From an uncultured Verrucomicrobia subdivision 3 bacterium (lineage in GTDB: Bacteria > Verrucomicrobiota > Verrucomicrobiia > Limisphaerales > UBA11358): a stretch of DNA of 64,000 nucleotides. This document shows, in pieces, positions 47,398 to 59,361 of this stretch (position 1 is the first letter of the stretch; each line of letters begins with the position of its first letter). The stretch lies in NCBI GenBank assembly GCA_903875465.1, contig CAIQWB010000117.1:1-64000 (forward strand). The letters run 5' to 3'. Position numbers and translations under genes: made by a program. Under the pieces are notes generated by a model. That model searched no databases and was not told the origin of the DNA. It saw nothing but the letters and a program-made list of their open reading frames with translations.

Positions 47398-48255
47398 TCA
47401 ATTAGTGGGGTCCAAATAAATGATATTAGTGGCGTAATTCTGGCCAACGGCTTCCGAATGCCCATCCACAAAGGTGGTGTTGCTCCGTTTGCTGTGGCGC
47501 ACCGTCAGGAAGTTGTTCAGCGACGTTTTGGCGGTATTAAAGGGCTGAAATCGCCCGCATTGCACCACCCAGCTCGATCCCATGGCCTTTTCGATATCCG
47601 GCTCGTCGCCTGGTACCAGCCGGGCCACCGGTTCCACCACCATCATTTTACTCGAGGGCCGCCGCACGGCGGTGGATTTAAACTTATACGCCACCCCATT
47701 GAGGTCAATAATCGTGGTGATTCCCGAGCCCGTCGAACCATTCACGTTGAAACTGGTCATTTCATAACTAAATAAATAAGGCCCATCCCCACTTTGCGCA
47801 TAGGTAATCCGGTCCCGATCGTCCGTATCCATCGGACACCGAAACATGTTGGTGGAACCGCCGGTTCCCAGTTGGGTTACCAAGGTGCTCTTGTTCAGGG
47901 TCATCAACGTGCCATTGACTGTCTGCATGTTTGCTCCAGCACGCCAGTAAATCCAGTCCTCCAAATGCGGACCATAAGTATTGGCCGAGGCGGCCCCCGG
48001 GTAAACATCGTTGTTGTCGCCCACATAAAGCACCATGGCCAGACCTAATTGTTTGGAATTATTGGTGCAATATGCCTGTTGCGCCTTGGCTTTTGCCTTG
48101 GCCAGAGCCGGCAGCAACATGGCTGCCAGGATCGCAATAATGGCGATAACCACCAAAAGTTCAATAAGTGTAAAGGCGGCTGGTGAAGTGCCTTCTTGGG
48201 AGCGGCCACGAGTAAACGCCAAGCGCGGGTAGTTTTTCATAAGTTCTGGGTTCAT
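47398..48255 (-). CDS. Type II secretion pseudopilin-like protein with H-X9-DG motif
   Basis: 285 residues from the ATG at 48255; the ATG at 48240 is an alternative. Prepilin peptidase site and N-terminal helix: [29 protein letters not shown] (basic leader before it). The C-terminal motif [16 protein letters not shown] fits H-X9-DG, a hallmark of this paralogue-rich family of Planctomycetes-Verrucomicrobia. It is probably cleaved by a PilD-like peptidase and built into a pseudopilus or anchored to the membrane. Confidence 0.9.
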
Positions 48256-48347
48256 CGCGAAAGTAGCAGGCTGGCCGGTGCCATTCAATCCCAATTCACC
48301 CGCCCGGCATCGTATGTTTGTACTACCCGCCGGCGAAATGCCGGGGC

Positions 48348-48785
48348 TCACTCCCGGGTATAAATAATCTGCCGGGCATGGCGATCCCCCAATCCATCCG
48401 GCATCTTCGGGTTTCCGGGAGGATTGGCCGTGATCACCAGCCGGTCGTGGCCCTCCGTACCCAGTTCGAGCTGGTACACCGCATGGATCGGTTGCCCCGC
48501 CGATTTTGGCACGGACGATTGCGTCAGGCTCACCGTCATTTGCTTGGGGCTGGCCGTTTCCAATAGCGTAAACGTTCCTCTGTACCATTCCTTGCCGTCG
48601 GCGGCACGCAATTCGTATTCCCGGCCGGTAAGATTCAACCAGCTTTTGTAAACCTGACCTTGGCGGAATTCCCGCCCGGCCCAAGTGCCCTGGATGGTGT
48701 CCGCATCCGCCAGGTGTGGTGCCGTCGCGCAACCAGCCATCGATAAGAGGGCCACACTGCTTAGTGCCAATAATAAAGTCTTCAT
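48348..48785 (-). CDS. TIGR03067-type lipoprotein
   Basis: 145 residues from the ATG at 48785. Lipobox LSMAGC in [13 protein letters not shown]. The mature part starts [15 protein letters not shown] and includes [20 protein letters not shown], like the TIGR03067 domain of Planctomycetes and Verrucomicrobia. Function unknown; probably a small beta-barrel lipocalin-like fold in the periplasm. Confidence 0.8.
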
Positions 48786-49233
48786 AAATTTAGAAACTGC
48801 CAGCTGGCTGCACCCGGTCGTTATCATTATTCCGTCACGCCCCACCCGATGACCCCTCTGCCGGGCCGTCCACCCGAACCCCGGGGGCAGACTTTGGCTG
48901 CCCAGACAATACCGTGACGCCGCCGCTCGGCCAATGAATTTTCCATCCCATGCTCAATGAATGATCCCCTGTTGCCTCCGAAAACCAGCTCGGTCAGAGG
49001 TTTCAGGTGGAGCATCCGATCATTCACGTGCCTCCGGGTGCTGCGGGATCAAGTGACCGACTTTTGCCCAGTTCAATTAGGTCTGATAAAAAAGTATTGT
49101 CACAATTTGGCAAATATTATAACGTAACGGGCAAATGCACTTAACCGTGCGACGGCAAACTGGGTTTGCCGGAGGCGCATTGGCGCAAACAAACAAAGTA
49201 AACAAACAAAACAAACAACATCGGAGGAACAAG
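48786..49233. other. Intergenic region with porin promoter and AC-rich leader
   Basis: The last 140 bp carry a candidate promoter (TTGTCA 49097-49102, TATAAC 49118-49123, 15-bp spacer) and a leader made of CAAACAAACAAAG-type repeats (49186-49222), which should be unstructured. The first 250 bp show no gene that I can support. Confidence 0.45.
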
Positions 49234-50472
49234 ATGAAGTTTAATAAATGGACATTGGGTCTGGCAGCTGTCGGCGTGGTCAGTTTGACCTCGGCGGCTC
49301 GTGCCGACGAAAAACCGAGCGCCGTGCAAACCGCGCTCTCGAACACCACCATCAGTGGTTATGTCAGCGCTTCGGCCAACGTGGGCTTGACGGATAAATA
49401 CTACAGCTCCCCCGCTGCGGCTATCCCGTTTCAGTCTGGCAAGGAAAATGGTTTCAACCTCGATGTGGTGAAGCTCTCCATCGCCAAGCCCGAAGACGCG
49501 ACCCCTTGGGCGTCCGGTTATCAAGTCGACCTGCTCGCTGGTCCTGATGCCGTTGGTTACAATACTTCCGTTGGCACGAAAGCCACGACCTCGAGCGATT
49601 TCGCCATTAAACAGGCGTTCGTCAGCTTGAATGCCCCGGTGGGCAATGGTCTGGATTTCAAAGTCGGCGTGTTTGACTCCCCGCTCGGCTACGAAGTCTT
49701 TGATTCGGGCAGCAACCCGAACTACACCCGTTCCTATGGCTATGCCATCGAACCGACCGAATTGACCGGCGTTTCCGCCACTTACAAGGTTAACGATCTG
49801 CTGTCCCTGAACGGTGGCGCGGCTGATACGTCTGCCGGATTCATCAATAACCGCAACAGCAACAGCGGGCTGACCCAGAGCACCTGGCATCTGGCTTACT
49901 TCGGTGACGCTACCATCACGGCTCCCTCTTCTTGGGGCTGGGCGGCTGGTTCTGCTGCGTTCGTCGGCGTCCTCTACGGTGGTGCGAACACGGTTCAAAA
50001 CGGCTACACCGGCGGTTACATGGGTGGCAACCAGGTCAACTACTACGGTGGTTTGACCCTGAACACTCCTTGGAAAGAAGTCACTGGCGGTCTGGCTTTC
50101 GACTACGCCCGCAACTTCTTGGGTGGCTATGAAAACACGGGTGGCAACACCTTTGATTATGACGTGCTGGCACTCGGCCTGTACGGCAAATATCAAGCCT
50201 CCGACAAGTTGAGCTTCAGCGCTCGTGGTGAATATGTTGAGGCCGATTCTTATACCGCCTCGAAGTATTCTGGCTCTCTGAACTTGGTGGAATTGACCGG
50301 CACGATCGAGTATGATCTGTGGGCCAATGTCATCTCCCGTTTGGAAGTCCGCTGGGATCAAAACCTCCAGGGTGGCGGCAATTTGTTGCCCAACACGAGC
50401 TACGTTAGTGGCAACTTGACCACCAAGCGTGATTCCGTTGGCCTCTATGCCAACATCATCTACAAGTTCTAA
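49234..50472 (+). CDS. Outer-membrane porin-like beta-barrel protein
   Basis: 412 residues from the ATG at 49234, with a perfect Shine-Dalgarno GGAGGA 6 bp upstream, the best in the window. Signal peptide MKFNKWTLGLAAVGVVSLTSAARA. The body shows alternating beta-strands (SGYVSASANVGLTDKYY, GLYGKYQASDKLSFSARGEYVEAD) and ends ANIIYKF with a terminal Phe. It is like the OmpL/DUF1597-type outer-membrane proteins abundant in Verrucomicrobiota. Strong translation signals and terminator suggest high expression. Confidence 0.88.
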   Translation: MKFNKWTLGLAAVGVVSLTSAARADEKPSAVQTALSNTTISGYVSASANVGLTDKYYSSPAAAIPFQSGKENGFNLDVVKLSIAKPEDATPWASGYQVDLLAGPDAVGYNTSVGTKATTSSDFAIKQAFVSLNAPVGNGLDFKVGVFDSPLGYEVFDSGSNPNYTRSYGYAIEPTELTGVSATYKVNDLLSLNGGAADTSAGFINNRNSNSGLTQSTWHLAYFGDATITAPSSWGWAAGSAAFVGVLYGGANTVQNGYTGGYMGGNQVNYYGGLTLNTPWKEVTGGLAFDYARNFLGGYENTGGNTFDYDVLALGLYGKYQASDKLSFSARGEYVEADSYTASKYSGSLNLVELTGTIEYDLWANVISRLEVRWDQNLQGGGNLLPNTSYVSGNLTTKRDSVGLYANIIYKF

Positions 50473-50490
50473 GTTAACTTAGAATCCTTT

Positions 50491-50522
50491 GCCCCTTTCG
50501 GCTCTGCCGGAAGGGGCTTTTT
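50491..50522 (+). terminator. Rho-independent terminator of the porin gene
   Basis: An 11-bp stem, GCCCCTTTCGG with CCGGAAGGGGC (one G-U pair), a 5-nt loop and TTTTT. Confidence 0.9.
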
Positions 50523-50588
50523 CCTTTTTTACACATCCAAATAGACAAAGCTTGGCATCGTTTGTCGTGACCATCATAATTTAAGGGC

Positions 50589-51476
50589 ATGGCACTCATC
50601 CGCGATATATTAGCCGCCAAAATGGCGGCCCGTCAGCCCGCCGTTTCATTTGAATTTTTCCCCCCGAAAACCGAGGAGGGGGATCGAAATTTGCTCGAAC
50701 GGCAAATCCCGGCCCTGCTGGCCACCCGTCCGGATTTTTGTTCGGTTACTTATGGTGCTGGCGGCAGTACCCGGGAAAAAACCCTGATGATTGTGGATCG
50801 TATTCAGCGGGACCACCACCTCACCGCCCTCGCGCATCTCACCTGTGTGAACCACACTCAGGCCGAAATCCTCGCTCTCTTGGAAAAATTCCGCGCCTTG
50901 GGTTGTCACAATATTCTCGCCCTCCGCGGTGACCCGCCCGGCGGTGGCGTGTTTCAGGCGACCGCCAATGGGTTTGAATATTCCTCCCAATTGGTTAAAT
51001 TCATCCGTGATCATGGTGATTTTTCCGTGGGCACCGCCGGCTTTCCCGAGGGGCACATCGCCTGCACCGCGGGCAAGCACACCGATTGGCAGCATCTGCG
51101 GGAAAAGATCGATGCCGGCGCCGATTTTGTGCTCACCCAGTTATTCTTCGATAACGCGGACTATTTTGAATTTCGCGATTACCTCACCCAAAAACTCGGA
51201 GTGACCGTTCCGCTTATTCCCGGCATCATTCCCATCTTGAATGCCGGGCAGATTACGAAGTTCACCCAGCTTTCCGGGGCAAAAATCCCCGCTGCCCTCC
51301 AGCAATCCTTGGACAAACTCGTTGGCAATGACGAGGCCGCCACCGAATTCGGCATCGAATATGCCACCCGGCAGTGCGAGGAACTCCTGCGTGCCGGCGT
51401 GCCCGGTTTGCATTTTTACACTCTGAACAAAGCCCGATCCACCGTGCAAGTGCTCAAAAACCTGCATTTGGCCTAG
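50589..51476 (+). CDS. metF: Methylenetetrahydrofolate reductase
   Basis: 295 residues. VSFEFFPPKTEEGDRNL (catalytic Glu in EFFPPK), CSVTYGAGGSTREKT, HNILALRGDPPGGG and DFVLTQLFFDNADYFEF match MetF. It reduces 5,10-methylene-THF to 5-methyl-THF with FAD for methionine synthesis. The next gene starts 12 bp later. Confidence 0.95.
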   Translation: MALIRDILAAKMAARQPAVSFEFFPPKTEEGDRNLLERQIPALLATRPDFCSVTYGAGGSTREKTLMIVDRIQRDHHLTALAHLTCVNHTQAEILALLEKFRALGCHNILALRGDPPGGGVFQATANGFEYSSQLVKFIRDHGDFSVGTAGFPEGHIACTAGKHTDWQHLREKIDAGADFVLTQLFFDNADYFEFRDYLTQKLGVTVPLIPGIIPILNAGQITKFTQLSGAKIPAALQQSLDKLVGNDEAATEFGIEYATRQCEELLRAGVPGLHFYTLNKARSTVQVLKNLHLA

Positions 51477-52066: not shown

Positions 52067-53017
52067 TTAAAACAGATTGCCCGCCATAATCCCCAGAATA
52101 CTGAGCGGCCCCTGATCTTCCAATCCATCGGCCGCCTTGTCCAGCTTTTGGAGCGAGACCTTCGCATTGACCAGTAAATCATCATTATTGACCAGCTTGC
52201 CCACCGAACCCTGGCCATTGTTGATCTTGTACAGGATTTGATTCAAGTTGGTCATCGAGGCCGTGGTGGACCGGTACAGCGCCTCATCGGTCAACAACTT
52301 CCCAATCGTGCCCTGGCCGGCACTGACATTATCCACCATGAGTTTCGCCTCCGTCACCGTTTCGTGAATGTTGGTCACGGTCGACATGGCGGAACTGTAC
52401 AAGCTGTCATCATAAAGGAGTTTGCCCACGGTTCCCTGTCCAGCGGCAATCTGGCTCGAAACATTCTTGATATTCGCAATCGTGGCGGTGAGCGGGCCGC
52501 TGTTTTGTTTAAAGAAATCGGTGAGCGGACCGAGGACGTTGTCAATTTTGTCACCCGAGAAACTGCTGGCCACCTTGGCAATCCCTGAGGCCGCATTATC
52601 CAGTTTGGCCATAATTGCACTCAGGTCGGGTTGTTCCGCCGTCTCCAATACCGCGTTATCCAAAGCTTTGGGCGCCGCCGCTGAACCAAAGTCAATCGCC
52701 ACAAAATTCTGCCCCATCAGCCCGGTGAATTTGATCAGTGCTTTGCTGTCGGTTTTCACCATGACATTGTCATGCAGCTTCATCGTGACTTGAACTTTCT
52801 GTTCCGCCAGGGCGATTTTTTCCACGCGACCAATTTCCACCCCCGCCATTTTCACCAGGTCGCCCACTTTCAAATCTTGGGCCGTGTCAAACTGGGCCAC
52901 CACATGGTAGCCACCGCGAAACATCTCCACGCCGCCCAGGGTCTCCACAATGAACCACGCGGCCAGCACAGCCACGACGACAAACATGCCCAGCTTGGTT
53001 TCCAATGAATTTTTCAT
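52067..53017 (-). CDS. mlaD: MCE-domain lipid transport protein (MlaD-like)
   Basis: 316 residues. One N-terminal membrane helix (LGMFVVVAVLAAWFIVETLGG), the MCE domain (VVAQFDTAQDLKVGDLVKMAGVEIGRV, ~38-110), then a long tail with three GQG(T/S)(V/I)GKL repeats. It is the periplasmic part of an ABC lipid transporter. Its ATG overlaps mlaF as ATGA. Homohexamer in the known systems. Confidence 0.92.
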   Translation of the reverse strand: MKNSLETKLGMFVVVAVLAAWFIVETLGGVEMFRGGYHVVAQFDTAQDLKVGDLVKMAGVEIGRVEKIALAEQKVQVTMKLHDNVMVKTDSKALIKFTGLMGQNFVAIDFGSAAAPKALDNAVLETAEQPDLSAIMAKLDNAASGIAKVASSFSGDKIDNVLGPLTDFFKQNSGPLTATIANIKNVSSQIAAGQGTVGKLLYDDSLYSSAMSTVTNIHETVTEAKLMVDNVSAGQGTIGKLLTDEALYRSTTASMTNLNQILYKINNGQGSVGKLVNNDDLLVNAKVSLQKLDKAADGLEDQGPLSILGIMAGNLF

Positions 53018-53787
53018 ATATTTTTAAATCGAGGTTCGCGTTTAAAATCCGCGTTCAGAAAAGTTTGCACCCGTGCATCGGGAAAGGCCTTTACCGCCTC
53101 CGGGGTGCCGATCGTGAGAATCTGGCCCCCATCCATGACTGCAATGCGATCCGCCACCCCAAAGGCCAGGTCACGGTCATGCGTCACCACCAGCGAGGTC
53201 ACGCGGGTGTTTTGGTTGAGATTCCAAATTTCCTGGCCAATGACCACGGAGGACAGGGGATCCAGTTCACTCGTGGGTTCATCGTAAAGAATCAATTGGG
53301 GCTCAATTACCAGGGCCCGGGCAATGGCCGCCCGCTTTTTCATGCCCCCGGAGAGCTCCCCGGGCATTTTATGGATTGCCTCGCTCAACCGCACATCCGC
53401 CAGCTTCTCGCGGACAATGCGCTCGATTTCCGCCGGTGGCTTCAAACGGTGTTCCGTCAAATACAGCCCCACATTTTCCCCCACCGTGAGGGAATTGAGC
53501 AGCGCCCCCGATTGAAAAACCAGCGCCATGCGGTATTTGGCCGCAATCTCCGGTGTCATGATGGATTCGCCGTTCACCAGGATCTCCCCCGCATCCGGCG
53601 CTTCCAGGCCGATCAAATGCTTCAGTAGCACGCTCTTGCCGCTGCCGCTGGGGCCCATGATCACAAAAATTTCGCCGGGCTGCACGGTGAAGTCCAGTCC
53701 TTGGAGCACTTCCTGGCTGGCAAAACTCTTGCGCAACCCGCGCACTTCGAGTTTGACGCCATCGGGTTTTTGAGCAGGTGAATTCAT
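53014..53787 (-). CDS. mlaF: MCE-type ABC transporter ATPase (MlaF-like)
   Basis: 257 residues. Walker A GPSGSGKS, signature LSGGMKKRAAIARAL, Walker B LILYDEPTSELDP, and the family EALK-type loops. It powers lipid movement through MlaE. It overlaps both neighbours. Confidence 0.94.
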   Translation of the reverse strand: MNSPAQKPDGVKLEVRGLRKSFASQEVLQGLDFTVQPGEIFVIMGPSGSGKSVLLKHLIGLEAPDAGEILVNGESIMTPEIAAKYRMALVFQSGALLNSLTVGENVGLYLTEHRLKPPAEIERIVREKLADVRLSEAIHKMPGELSGGMKKRAAIARALVIEPQLILYDEPTSELDPLSSVVIGQEIWNLNQNTRVTSLVVTHDRDLAFGVADRIAVMDGGQILTIGTPEAVKAFPDARVQTFLNADFKREPRFKNI

Positions 53788-54524
53788 CAGTGAAGCAACA
53801 AGCGGGTAAGGATGTAATCAAACATCACAATCAAAATAATGGAATTCACCACCGCCTTGGTGACCGACCGGCCAATGCCGCGCGGGCCGCCAATCGTCGC
53901 CATGCCTTGGTGACAGGAAACCGTCCCAATGATGATCGCAAAACAGAAGGTTTTGAAAACCCCATTCGCCACATCCTTGAGCTCCACCATGCTGCGGAGG
54001 TCACCAAAGAAAACGGCAAAGGGAATGGCCATGTGATGGTTGATTTCCGCCACCGTCGCCCCCCCAAACCAGCCAATCAGAATCGCCAGCACCACCAGCA
54101 TCGGCAGGGCCAGGGCAATCGCCACCAGTCGCGGCAGCACCAGGTAATGAATGGGATTGATGTTCATGGTGCGCAGCGCATCGATTTCCTGGTAAACCCG
54201 CATGGAGCCAATCTCCGCGGCCATGGCGGAGCCGATGCGCCCCGCAATCAGGATCGCCATCATCACCGGAGCCAGTTCCCGGGCCACCGCCAGACCCACA
54301 ATCCCCCCCACTGCACTCGGCAGGCCGCGTTCCACCAGCGCCGGGCCGGTTTGCAGCGAAAGCACGCCGCCAATGAAAAAGGACAGCATGCAAACCATCA
54401 GCAAACTCGCGTTCCCAATTTCAAAAAACTGCTCAAATACCTTCTGCCGTTGCCGCCACGCCAGCGGCAGCGCCCCCAGCGTGCGCCAGAATAGCAGGAC
54501 CATTTGACCAATGTTATCAAACAT
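53787..54524 (-). CDS. mlaE: MCE-type ABC transporter permease (MlaE-like)
   Basis: 245 residues and about five membrane helices. Family landmarks QTGPALVERGLPSAVGGIVG, APVMMAILIAGRIGSAMAAEIGSMRVYQEIDAL (EQ-loop region) and GGPRGIGRSVTKAVV near the end. Its stop shares a base with the mlaF start (TGATG). Confidence 0.93.
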   Translation of the reverse strand: MFDNIGQMVLLFWRTLGALPLAWRQRQKVFEQFFEIGNASLLMVCMLSFFIGGVLSLQTGPALVERGLPSAVGGIVGLAVARELAPVMMAILIAGRIGSAMAAEIGSMRVYQEIDALRTMNINPIHYLVLPRLVAIALALPMLVVLAILIGWFGGATVAEINHHMAIPFAVFFGDLRSMVELKDVANGVFKTFCFAIIIGTVSCHQGMATIGGPRGIGRSVTKAVVNSIILIVMFDYILTRLLLH

Positions 54525-54544: not shown

Positions 54545-56002
54545 TCATTGAACCGGCGTGTTTACCTGCTTGGACAAGTTGAAATCCAGACCGTAAAAAC
54601 AGTGCCAGCGGTCCGTGTCACCAGCATGCATATACTGGAAAAGGCCAAACAGGAGCGAGCTTTTTTTTGTGGTGGCCGTGCTCTCGCTGCGGTACAAGTT
54701 CCACAGCAGGGAGCGGCTGCTATGGCCATTGGTCGCATTGTCCTCCGCCCGCCACACGGACCAGAGGGGCGACCAGTTGCGGTTCACCCCGCGTTGCTCA
54801 TTCAAGGCCGGTTCAATCGGGGCGAATACTTGCAAACGCGTGCTGCCGTGCTCATCCCGGTGCCAGGTGAAAAACGGCCACATGTCTAATCGTCTTTTCT
54901 CCGTGCCCTTCGCGAGGTTGTGCTCCACCGTGCTTTCATAGAGATAAAACATCACCCGGTGGCGCTCGCTCGCCACCAAATCGGAATGGAATCCGCGATA
55001 CTGGTACAGCGGCCAGAGGTAGGAATCACTCTCCTGTTTCGCATTGGCAGATTCACTGAACACCGGCCAAACCCGCGAAGTATGCTTGCCTTCCCCGCGG
55101 GTGAAAACCACCAATGGCCACGGGCCCTGCCACTCGTGGTAATGCTTCTGCCGGTCGTCGATCCAGCTAAAGAACGGCCAAAGCACGGAGGTTTCATCGC
55201 GCTCGGGCGAGCGCGATTGCGTGTAGAAGGGAATGGCCCCCTCGGAATACTCCGGGTTCTCCGAGCCCAGACCGGTGGCGGTCTTATGGTAAATCGGCCA
55301 AAGCGCAAAGAATTTATCGTGCCCCGGCACCGTGGTCACCTCCCCAAACCCATTTGTGGTCCAGGTGATTTCCTTGTGCTCGTGGCCCGCCAGTGGCCAG
55401 GCTTTCCACCCCTCCAGATGGTCTCCCTGGCGCAAGGAAACAAAGGGATACAGGTAATTGTCCGTCACGTACCCCTTTTTGCGCGTTTCCGCATAAAACG
55501 GAAACATCACAAAATAAACATCATTTAGCATTAACCGGTGCTTGATGTGGCCATAGAACGGCACCACCGCCGTGTAGTTTTCGTCCGCATTGGTGGAACG
55601 TTGCTGGAAATAAAGCGGGTAAATGGTAAAACGCCGGGCGTCACCATCCTCCGGATAGGACCCGCCGGCAAAATTAAGCATCTGCGCAAATTGCCAGTGG
55701 TATTCCTTGCCATAAACATTGTACGAAAGCAGCGGATACAAATAATTATCCTCCCGCGCCTCCAGGGCGGGGTTGGTGCAGCGGGAAAAAAATGGCGGCC
55801 AGGCTATGGTCGTCTCGGTGCCGCGTTGCTGCCGGTAATAAAATGGCCCGGCCATCTCCGTGCGCGTGCCGGTTTCCAAGGTCAGCTCAAAGGTCTGCCA
55901 GGCCGGTCCAGCGCAGGCGTCCGCCAGGGCGGCCATGGCTGGAGTAAAACCCAGCCAAGCCACCCAAATCACGACCAAACCCGATCTGCCAAATCGCTTC
56001 AT
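54545..56002 (-). CDS. Secreted WPF/YPL-repeat protein (undescribed)
   Basis: 485 residues. Signal peptide ~1-24 (LVVIWVAWLGFTPAMA). The body has at least 14 copies of an aromatic-Pro motif (WPPFFSR, YPLLSY, YPLYFQQ, FPFYAE, YPFVSL, WPIYHK, IPFYTQ, WPFFSW, WPVFSE, WPLYQY, WPFFTW) spaced by about 20-40 residues, each at the start of a likely beta-strand. It may be a beta-barrel or propeller. It is 20 bp before mlaE, likely in the same operon, which suggests a role in envelope lipid transport (inference). I recognise no named family. Candidate -10 on the minus strand: TATAAG at 56033-56038. Confidence 0.75.
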   Translation of the reverse strand: MKRFGRSGLVVIWVAWLGFTPAMAALADACAGPAWQTFELTLETGTRTEMAGPFYYRQQRGTETTIAWPPFFSRCTNPALEAREDNYLYPLLSYNVYGKEYHWQFAQMLNFAGGSYPEDGDARRFTIYPLYFQQRSTNADENYTAVVPFYGHIKHRLMLNDVYFVMFPFYAETRKKGYVTDNYLYPFVSLRQGDHLEGWKAWPLAGHEHKEITWTTNGFGEVTTVPGHDKFFALWPIYHKTATGLGSENPEYSEGAIPFYTQSRSPERDETSVLWPFFSWIDDRQKHYHEWQGPWPLVVFTRGEGKHTSRVWPVFSESANAKQESDSYLWPLYQYRGFHSDLVASERHRVMFYLYESTVEHNLAKGTEKRRLDMWPFFTWHRDEHGSTRLQVFAPIEPALNEQRGVNRNWSPLWSVWRAEDNATNGHSSRSLLWNLYRSESTATTKKSSLLFGLFQYMHAGDTDRWHCFYGLDFNLSKQVNTPVQ

Positions 56003-56238: not shown

Positions 56239-59200
56239 TTATTCCGCTGCCGTCTTTTTATCGATCAAAAGTCCTTTTTTTCCCAGCAATGCCAGGAGTG
56301 CCGGCAGAAACGTCAGTCCCGCCACCATGCACAAGGCAATCCCGCTGGCCATGACAAATCCCAAACTATGAATACCACGATGTTTCGCGAGAATCAAGCT
56401 GCCGAAACCCGCGATCGCCGTCAGGCCGGAGACGAGCACGGCCTTGCCCGTGCTCCGCGATAAAATACCGGGCGTGCGCTCCTCCGCATACCGGTTCAAA
56501 ATATGAATGCCGTTGGTGACCCCGATGCCAATGACCAGCGGCAGGGTCATGATGTTGGCTGGATTAAATGGCACTCCCAGCCAGCCCATCAAACCGGCCA
56601 GCCAGAGCGTGCCAATGCCCACCGGGATCAAGGCGAGGACCACGGCCAGCAAGCTGCGGAAGTGAATCATCACCAGCAGGGCGATGGCGATCAGGGAATA
56701 AATGGCCGCGCGCTCGTAGCTTTCCTTGAGCAGGGAGGTGTATTCGTACAGTTGCACTGGTGTCCCCGTCACATTGGGGTCCACGCTGCGAAGATCCTGG
56801 ATGAATTTTTCCTGGTACTCCCGCTGCCATACATTTTCGCGCGGGTAAATTTGCAGCAGGTATTTGCCGGTGCCTCCCACAAACCGGTCCCGCAAGGCCG
56901 GGGGTAAATCCGCCACGTTCAGCGGTGCACTGTCATCCTGGTTTTGCAGGGCCTGGAAGGTGTCGTGGATGTCCCGGAACAGTGCCTGCTGAAATTGAGC
57001 GATTTTTTCCGCGTGCACGGTCACCATCACTCCCTCCCCACTGAGCATGTCCGCGCGGAATTGCTGGATGGCCTGGCGCAGCGATCCCAATTGTTTGGTC
57101 AGCGCGGGATCATTGGTGCCCACTTCCGCCTGGGCCGCCCCCAGGTAGCCATAGAGCGAGTAGAGCGTGCGGCTTAAGGCGCTGGTATCCGCCGGCCCTG
57201 CGTCCGGCGGCTGGAATTGCAGGCTGGCCACCTCTTGTTTGATTTGGTGGATGAGTTGCAGTTTCCCCGCCTGGTCCGGGGTCATAAACGCCGCCACCGA
57301 CTCCACATCCGCCACCGTGTTGGTCAGCGCCTTGAACTTTTTTTCCAGCTCCCGGGCCTGCGCCAGATTGTCCGCCACCACGGCACCGTAGAGCACTGAT
57401 TTATCCGCCGAATTGATCAATTTTTCCTCAAACACCACCGCTGGCAGGCCGGCGCTTTGCATGTTTAACAAGTTGTAATCGAAAAATACCTTGGGCAGTT
57501 GCGTGGCCGCCAGCGAGCAGGTGATCACGATAAACACCGTCACCAGCAGCGGTCGTTGCAACCAGAGATTTTCTATCCTCGCCCGGGCCTCCGTGGCCGA
57601 CGGCTGGTGGTCGATGACGTTTTGGCGGCCGCGCAGCAGCATGACGGGCAGCAGCGTCATCATGGGGATGAAACACACCATCAAACCACCGCCGCAAATG
57701 ATGCCCATTTCCTGGATGCCTTTGAAATCCGTGAACCACATGGCGATGAAGGCGCCCGCCGTGGTGAGGGCGCCCGTGAAAATCCCCTGGCCGGTGTACA
57801 CCATCGCTTTGACCAAAGCCTCCTCTTCCGTGCGTCCATGCCGCAATTCCTCTTCGTACCGCGTGACCAGATGCACCCCAAAATCAATCGCCAGGCCAAT
57901 CAATATCGGCACGAAGGTGATGGTCAGGATGTTCAGGTGGCCCACCGTCAGCGTGGCGAATGCCAGTGTATACGCCAGACCCACCACTAGGCAAAGGGTC
58001 GCCTTCACCGGCCGCCCGGTCTCATTGTAGCCGTAAATAAAAATCAGCGCGCATAACACCAGCGACACAATGCTCGCCACCGTGGTGTCCTTTTGCGACT
58101 GGGCCATTTCATCCTGCTCCAGCACCGGCTCGCCGGTCAGTCCGACATTCAGCCCCGGCACTTCCGTGATCGTCTGTGCCACCAGTTCGCGGAAACGTTT
58201 CACCGCCGCCTCGTTCAGGTCGTCATTCGGCGCATGCGCCGAGACCAGGAAAATGGTTCCCCTGGCAAACGTGATGTAGCTCGCGTTCTCAGCCTCTGCA
58301 CTGCTGTCAAACAAAGCATTCACGCCCGGGGACAGGGGGGGGCCCGGTTGCGTCAGGCTGTCCTTCGCCTGTGTCAAAATCCGCTGGAGCGCCGGCAGCG
58401 CCCCGATCAACGAGTCCGTTTGCGCGCTCGCCTCCCGCGGGGCCGTGCGGAATTGCGTGTTCACCTGGTCGAAGAATGTTACCAGATTGGTCGCCCGGGT
58501 GAATTGGGTAATGAAGGGGCGAAACACCTTCAGCGTCCGCAGTAATTCCTCCAAATCACTCCGGGAAATTTCCTCCGGATAGGCATCCTCCAGCAGCAAC
58601 CGGTTGAGCATCGCCAGTCGCTCCCCGCCCGCCGGCGCGTCGCGGAGCAGTTTCTGCGTGGCGGCTCGCAGGGGGATGCCGCTGAAGCGTTGGGGATTGT
58701 AAATCAGTGGCCCATGGACCAGGCGGTTTAAATCATTCGTCAGGACCGTGAGCAATGGCGTGGCGTCCGCGCGGGCACCCCCGTATTGCGCCAGGGCTGT
58801 CCGCGTGGCCGGGGACAAGTGGTCTCTGACATATTGGGAAACCGCCTCGACCGCCGGGGCCGTCACCGGTTGACTGGCATCCGCGGGTGCTTTGAACTTG
58901 TCCACCAAAGCGGCCAGATTTTTGAAATTGCCATGGTCAAAGTCCGGGCTTTCCTCCGGCACAAACAGCAGGGCCTTCGGGCCCATCATTTTCAGGTCCC
59001 CTTTGTAAAAAACATCCGTGAAGAGATTGGTTTCCGCCTCCAGCCGCGCGCCCAGGCGTTCGACAAACTGCCGGTTTTTCTCGGCATTTTCGCTTTGCAC
59101 CACCACCACCAGATCATCCTGCTGGGTGAACTCCTTTTTGAATTCCAGAAAATTGTGCTGGTACTTCTTGTTCGCCCCCACCAAGTCATCCCGGTTGGTG

Positions 59201-59361
59201 TCAAATTCCAGCCAGCCATACGGCTGGGGCAGGGCATAGAACACACACACCACAAAGAGCACCACCTGCGGGATGACAAACCAGCGGGGATGACGAACGG
59301 TCGCCCGCGCCAGTTTGCCCAGCAGTCGCGCCATCAGGGAATCCGCACTCAGCGCCTTCAT
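56239..59361 (-). CDS. RND-superfamily (MMPL/HpnN-like) lipid exporter
   Basis: 1040 residues. Twelve membrane helices in two halves (first helix ~25-45; helix groups ~430-600 and ~850-1030), two large periplasmic loops (~50-420 and ~640-850), like the hopanoid-associated HpnN and MMPL proteins. Motifs: TNRDDLVGANKKY at the start, LIGLAIDFGVHLVTRYEEEL in the first half, LVIGIGVTNGIHILNRY in the second. The first-half Asp in IDFG fits the proton path; the second half has Thr-Asn instead. It is upstream of the WPF-repeat and Mla genes, suggesting a lipid or hopanoid export function. Confidence 0.88.
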   Translation of the reverse strand: MKALSADSLMARLLGKLARATVRHPRWFVIPQVVLFVVCVFYALPQPYGWLEFDTNRDDLVGANKKYQHNFLEFKKEFTQQDDLVVVVQSENAEKNRQFVERLGARLEAETNLFTDVFYKGDLKMMGPKALLFVPEESPDFDHGNFKNLAALVDKFKAPADASQPVTAPAVEAVSQYVRDHLSPATRTALAQYGGARADATPLLTVLTNDLNRLVHGPLIYNPQRFSGIPLRAATQKLLRDAPAGGERLAMLNRLLLEDAYPEEISRSDLEELLRTLKVFRPFITQFTRATNLVTFFDQVNTQFRTAPREASAQTDSLIGALPALQRILTQAKDSLTQPGPPLSPGVNALFDSSAEAENASYITFARGTIFLVSAHAPNDDLNEAAVKRFRELVAQTITEVPGLNVGLTGEPVLEQDEMAQSQKDTTVASIVSLVLCALIFIYGYNETGRPVKATLCLVVGLAYTLAFATLTVGHLNILTITFVPILIGLAIDFGVHLVTRYEEELRHGRTEEEALVKAMVYTGQGIFTGALTTAGAFIAMWFTDFKGIQEMGIICGGGLMVCFIPMMTLLPVMLLRGRQNVIDHQPSATEARARIENLWLQRPLLVTVFIVITCSLAATQLPKVFFDYNLLNMQSAGLPAVVFEEKLINSADKSVLYGAVVADNLAQARELEKKFKALTNTVADVESVAAFMTPDQAGKLQLIHQIKQEVASLQFQPPDAGPADTSALSRTLYSLYGYLGAAQAEVGTNDPALTKQLGSLRQAIQQFRADMLSGEGVMVTVHAEKIAQFQQALFRDIHDTFQALQNQDDSAPLNVADLPPALRDRFVGGTGKYLLQIYPRENVWQREYQEKFIQDLRSVDPNVTGTPVQLYEYTSLLKESYERAAIYSLIAIALLVMIHFRSLLAVVLALIPVGIGTLWLAGLMGWLGVPFNPANIMTLPLVIGIGVTNGIHILNRYAEERTPGILSRSTGKAVLVSGLTAIAGFGSLILAKHRGIHSLGFVMASGIALCMVAGLTFLPALLALLGKKGLLIDKKTAAE

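Follow-up and report, generated by a model that had tools for sequence, protein, structure and literature searches.

A Secreted Aromatic-Proline Repeat Protein Is a Candidate Fourth Subunit of an MCE Lipid Transporter in Verrucomicrobiota

Directly before an MCE-type lipid transporter in the window (the whole 64,000-nucleotide stretch of DNA analyzed), we found a gene for a secreted aromatic-proline repeat protein, here called WPF. With modest confidence, we favor the reading that WPF is a dedicated fourth subunit of this Verrucomicrobiota transporter, folded as one beta-meander with an aromatic-Pro edge and a polar edge and doing the job of MlaC and MlaA together. The case is built on a gene family, its operon, its co-occurrence with one mlaE subtype, its exclusivity with MlaC in the genomes sampled, and an antiparallel repeat, all computed here. 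WPF is near-universal in Limisphaerales and present across Verrucomicrobiota.

Results

A preliminary description of the window had placed an open reading frame (ORF) of 485 residues at 54545..56002 without giving a strand. The ORF exists and lies on the minus strand, with its ATG at 56002. A probable Sec signal peptide, recognized by eye, spans approximately residues 1 to 25 (55928..56002, minus strand), with cleavage near the junction of AMA and AL. The WPF repeat region covers residues 53 to 453 (54644..55846, minus strand) with a period of ∼19 residues, as defined by conserved Pro columns, period-19 hydrophobicity, and covariation. Across the family, 171 of 184 members carry a hydrophobic segment near the N terminus and merely 12 of 184 a lipobox-like motif (the window protein has none by eye); WPF therefore looks Sec-secreted and, in most members, is not a lipoprotein.

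Neighboring genes were assigned with Pfam and NCBIfam. In order on the minus strand, the locus encodes an HpnN-like RND/MMPL transporter (56239..59361; PF03176; TIGR03480 at 552 bits versus a cut-off of 752), WPF, and then mlaE, mlaF, and mlaD. The 20 bp between the WPF stop and the mlaE start (54524) agree with the spacing given previously. The mlaE permease gene (53787..54524; PF02405, 7.4e-71) belongs to a WPF-linked subtype, as judged from the tree and co-occurrence data below. It overlaps the mlaF ATPase gene (53014..53787; PF00005, with the MlaF model among the matches) by one base, and mlaF overlaps mlaD (52067..53017; PF02470, 1.8e-19) by four; this mlaD encodes the long form of the protein, 316 aa with one MCE domain. 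Just past mlaD, on the opposite strand, window positions 49135-51476 hold a BBP2-type porin (PF07642) and an ORF labeled MTHFR by eye, and an MTHFR-type neighbor was found again in the loci of several relatives. The ORF at window positions 47398-48732 contains a prepilin-type N terminus of a kind typical of Verrucomicrobiota.

The mature part of the WPF protein (459 residues) contains 13 [FWY]P, 8 WP, and 13 "hydrophobic-P-[FLIV]-[FYVLA]" sites. None of 2,000 composition-preserving shuffles reached these counts (shuffle means, 4.6, 1.2, and 0.6, respectively; maximum for [FWY]P, 11). The earlier count of at least 14 aromatic-Pro motifs holds when aromatic residues before or after Pro are both accepted, which gives 18 sites. 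Aligning the window protein with 30 relatives from across the phylum (21 to 27% identity to it) yielded 18 invariant columns, 14 of which are motif prolines: P70, P90, P129, P148, P168, P186, P203, P236, P258, P276, P296, P313, P331, and P376.

The family was also undescribed in the collections searched, as had been suspected. The window protein matched no Pfam or NCBIfam family, and a PDB sequence search with two WPF profiles returned nothing up to an E value of 10. Profiles for MlaA (PF04333) and MlaC (PF05494) had no match among the WPF proteins scanned, IMG/VR scans gave no relative, and none of the literature listings searched describes a WPF-type protein beside mlaE. When 31 diverse members were compared with Pfam and NCBIfam, just one weak NCBIfam match and one weak Pfam match were obtained. 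Residues 177-275 of one relative (L098) matched NF047486 (LA_1737_Cterm) at an E value of 2.3e-6 and 27.7 bits, under the curated cut-off of 60; this model had no match in 30 of the 31 members scanned or in any of 58 order genomes. We take NF047486, from its locus tag, to be a Leptospira family, and judging from this one sequence match Leptospira may have the aromatic-Pro repeat as well.

Genome searches for WPF covered Verrucomicrobiota. All 49 genomes of the genus or family encoded it, as did 265 of 320 Limisphaerales genomes, including 143 of the 154 good ones (completeness, ≥90%; contamination, ≤5%). The profile search detected WPF in 105 of 384 genomes at the class level and 169 of 387 at the phylum level. 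Named relatives were nearly all metagenome-assembled genomes (MAGs) of Verrucomicrobia subdivision 3 or Limisphaerales.

To describe the surroundings of the gene, we used 184 loci spread across families: 30 from the 49 genus genomes, 94 from elsewhere in the order, 20 from elsewhere in the class, and 40 from other classes. A same-strand mlaE lay directly downstream of WPF in 169 of the 184; these loci were chosen from the listed, stronger matches, so weak homologs are under-sampled in this count. Adjacency was kept across classes, as expected of an MlaEFD subunit (30/30 in the genus, 80/94 in the rest of the order, 20/20 in the rest of the class, and 39/40 in other classes), with a median of 19 bp from WPF to the first matched MlaE residue. 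Two of the 15 loci lacking a downstream mlaE stop at a contig edge. In 12 of the 94 order loci and 1 of the 40 phylum loci, enough downstream sequence was present to show that WPF stands apart from mlaE.

Upstream, an HpnN-like gene preceded WPF in 54 of 79 usable Limisphaerales loci but in 0 of 20 from other orders of the class and 0 of 38 from other classes, and HpnN was therefore rejected as a constant partner outside Limisphaerales. Genes upstream of WPF elsewhere include those for phosphoglucomutase-like, OTCase, MBL-fold, and MacB/FtsX-like proteins. The refuting case named in the preliminary description, homologs that never occur near lipid-transport genes, is contradicted; the proximity that it asked about is general for mlaE and absent for HpnN-like genes beyond the order.

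Where WPF and mlaE have separated within the order, they are still found together in the genome. All 12 order genomes with an unlinked WPF keep an mlaE that is 61 to 77% identical to that of the window, and the other mlaE copies in these genomes are at most 37% identical. In the 13th genome with an unlinked WPF, which belongs to another class, mlaE matches at 34 to 36% only. Among WPF-negative order genomes, the subtype was found in 6 of 55, those six being 57 to 82% complete; all 11 good genomes lacked it. WPF thus comes and goes together with one mlaE subtype (12/12 and 0/11), as expected of an MlaEFD subunit. A tree was computed from 91 MlaE rows, of which 69 were linked to WPF (most of them drawn from the 169 available) and 22 were not. 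All WPF-linked sequences fell to one side of one branch with weak support (87/49), and none of 500 label shuffles scored as low. The window genome itself has three mlaE genes, and WPF occurs only at that of the window. WPF is encoded directly before the transporter and is kept or lost together with it, which makes it a strong contender for the missing outer-membrane link. The split loci in which the subtype is kept elsewhere (L060, L079, L083, L085, L155, L157, L161, L179, L203, L206, L207, and L209) show that the operon has come apart in several families.

We then compared the Mla components of 63 genomes, 44 WPF positive and 19 WPF negative. MlaC was detected in none of the 44 and in 4 of the 19; MlaA was detected in 7 of each group, leaving 37 of the 44 WPF-positive genomes with no MlaA at all. 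The four MlaC-bearing genomes (G326, G348, G356, and G381) encode MlaC and MlaA after mlaEFD, an arrangement beside mlaE that was confined to WPF-negative genomes, and their MlaD proteins, measured from hit start to stop, are 151 to 175 aa. By comparison, WPF-linked MlaD proteins range from 231 to 454 aa (median, 325; all 133 hits scored). Both wirings, WPF with a long MlaD and MlaC/MlaA with a short one, occur within a single family (f72). Long-MlaD operons lacking WPF were also found, so WPF is not the sole possible partner of a long MlaD. At loci L140, L146, L147, and L148, all from Verrucomicrobiota, the operon has the proteobacterial style, mlaE-F-D-C-A, and a short MlaD (151 to 175 aa). 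These operons contrast with a paper on Veillonella, according to which short MlaD is confined to Proteobacteria (PMC10665443).

The window genome has no MlaC. It does encode a single protein with an MlaA domain, in a frame of 709 aa (L149:4175-6301, contig 78) away from any mlaE, and it is therefore not strictly MlaA-less. Consequently, the earlier suggestion of a partner for MlaA-less systems needs qualification in the genome that gave rise to it. Association with the MCE transporter holds generally, and co-occurrence outlasts linkage. The C-terminal part of the 709-aa frame appears alpha/beta hydrolase-like by eye (GDSMG motif) with no Pfam match, and long MlaA frames resembling it (∼630 to 810 aa) are present in several other genomes. 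Such frames possibly join an outer-membrane lipid extractor to a lipase. An MlaA-WPF fusion was rejected: although the frame has many X-P sites, its second part fails to align to WPF.

Averaged over the family, hydrophobicity shows a strong period of 19 residues. Aromatic and hydrophobic residues flank each Pro, with polar stretches between, and hence the protein would have one aromatic and one polar edge. Mean-field covariation was computed from 184 sequences, which count as 165.5 effective sequences at 80% identity, and many of the top covarying pairs lay on antidiagonals around short turns. The hairpin signal was 1.93 at the aromatic-Pro motifs and 2.30 at the polar midpoints, compared with 0.06 at the quarter points, a phase matched by 0 of 5,000 phase shuffles. 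The pattern recurred in the 124 order sequences alone and in the 60 distant sequences alone (0 of 2,000 shuffles for each). Covariation thus shows WPF as an unbroken antiparallel meander whose short strands turn at the aromatic-Pro motifs and again midway between them. It would have ∼40 strands of ∼9.5 residues each and ∼20 aromatic-Pro hairpins, the strand count being approximate because peak picking imposes a minimum spacing.

Other folds were considered against the same data. A beta-propeller with four-stranded blades is not favored: it predicts that every fourth turn lacks a hairpin, and most turns show the hairpin signal. A beta-solenoid would be expected to show same-phase covariation at lag 19 or 38, and none was seen beyond local lags. 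Transmembrane dyad alternation exceeded a z score of 2 in 0 of 184 members (median z, −0.94); five PF07642-type porin controls scored 1.6 to 3.2. Ring closure was not seen in N- to C-terminal covariation (best score, 3.3), and long-range covariation pairs, such as residues 199-204 with 413-418 at 5.3 versus an expected maximum of ∼4.9, are too weak to use. AlphaFold2 returned no usable fold for the full protein with 20 alignment rows (mean pLDDT, 32) or for residues 121-346 (mean pLDDT, 35).

Discussion

In the reading that we favor, WPF, MlaE, MlaF, and MlaD would form one lipid transporter. WPF would be secreted and would fold as a single long antiparallel beta-meander, with a row of ∼20 Trp/Tyr/Phe-Pro-aromatic turns along one edge opposite a polar edge. 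It would probably provide the long, barrel-less MlaD with an end on the outer-membrane side, place an aromatic-Pro edge in the inner leaflet, and take the role that MlaC and MlaA fill beside the short MlaD of other Verrucomicrobiota. We infer contact with MlaD, seating at the outer membrane, and passage of lipid. More tentatively, WPF could be the missing outer-membrane end of an ancestral-type MlaEFD bridge, its ∼20 tips dipping into the inner leaflet and moving phospholipid or hopanoid to and from the MlaD needle. Hopanoid is a possible substrate in Limisphaerales, where a hopene cyclase scored over cut-off in 22 of 24 sampled genomes and an HpnN-like gene is often adjacent to WPF.

These data were weighed against three other explanations. 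Given that WPF is secreted, mostly without a lipobox, and that MlaC is missing from all 44 WPF-positive genomes sampled, the protein might be soluble in the periplasm and ferry lipid between MlaD and the outer membrane, analogous to MlaC and not to MlaA or PqiC. However, a long MlaD lessens the need for a shuttle, the conserved aromatic edge appears membrane-seeking, and we know of no lipid carrier that is a 460-residue repeat meander; we regard a carrier as unlikely. Less probable still is an assembly or regulatory factor, such as a chaperone or stabilizer of MlaD, that makes no contact with lipid. Genetic coupling alone cannot tell a conduit from a stabilizer, but the 14 strictly conserved motif prolines with aromatic or hydrophobic flanks suggest a surface under direct selection, and co-loss with a whole mlaE subtype better fits a subunit.

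The continuous antiparallel meander, secretion, and an operon shared with mlaEFD would also suit an integral outer-membrane beta-barrel translocon. We consider this the least probable of the explanations: no member showed dyad alternation over 2 (0/184; porin controls, 1.6 to 3.2), the strand pitch (∼9.5 residues) is on the short side for crossing a membrane, and hydrophobicity is gathered at one end of the strands. The WPF family offers a concrete and genetically tight candidate, for one whole phylum, for how a barrel-less, MlaA/MlaC-free MlaEFD reaches the outer membrane. It also shows two alternative wirings in that phylum, WPF with a long MlaD or MlaC/MlaA with a short MlaD, and the aromatic-Pro edge makes a testable feature of the family.

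Several known systems resemble this arrangement in part. TGD4, which works with the MCE transporter TGD1-2-3 at the chloroplast outer envelope, is beta-rich and separately encoded and serves such a transporter at an outer membrane, as WPF would; TGD4 is a transmembrane barrel, whereas WPF lacks dyad alternation. The proteobacterial MlaC-MlaA arm (PF05494 and PF04333) is also secreted and encoded with mlaE, mlaF, and mlaD, and WPF would similarly pass lipid to or from the outer membrane. In contrast, WPF operons contain neither gene and use a long MlaD, and WPF matches neither profile. PqiC, described as a separately encoded outer-membrane ring for PqiB in PqiABC (PMC10897342), is comparable in being a separate secreted protein that meets a long MCE protein on its outer-membrane side, as WPF would. 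It is, however, an octameric lipoprotein (PMC10897342), and WPF mostly lacks a lipobox and has no Pfam match.

According to the Veillonella paper, MlaABC occurs mostly in Proteobacteria and an MlaD-fused barrel in other lineages, and MlaD of PVC and FCB bacteria has no C-terminal beta-barrel at all; the paper leaves room for proteins still to be identified (PMC10665443). The system of Veillonella parvula resembles that proposed here in having MlaEFD without MlaC or MlaA, a long MlaD, and an all-beta outer-membrane end (PMC10665443). It differs in that its 10-stranded barrel is fused to MlaD (PMC10665443), whereas WPF is encoded by a separate gene upstream of mlaE, has ∼20 aromatic-Pro hairpins, and belongs to bacteria for which the fused barrel is reported to be missing. 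If WPF is indeed the outer-membrane end of an ancestral-type MlaEFD bridge, it would represent a new beta-meander architecture and a third way of reaching the outer membrane, alongside MlaC/MlaA and the barrel fused to MlaD.
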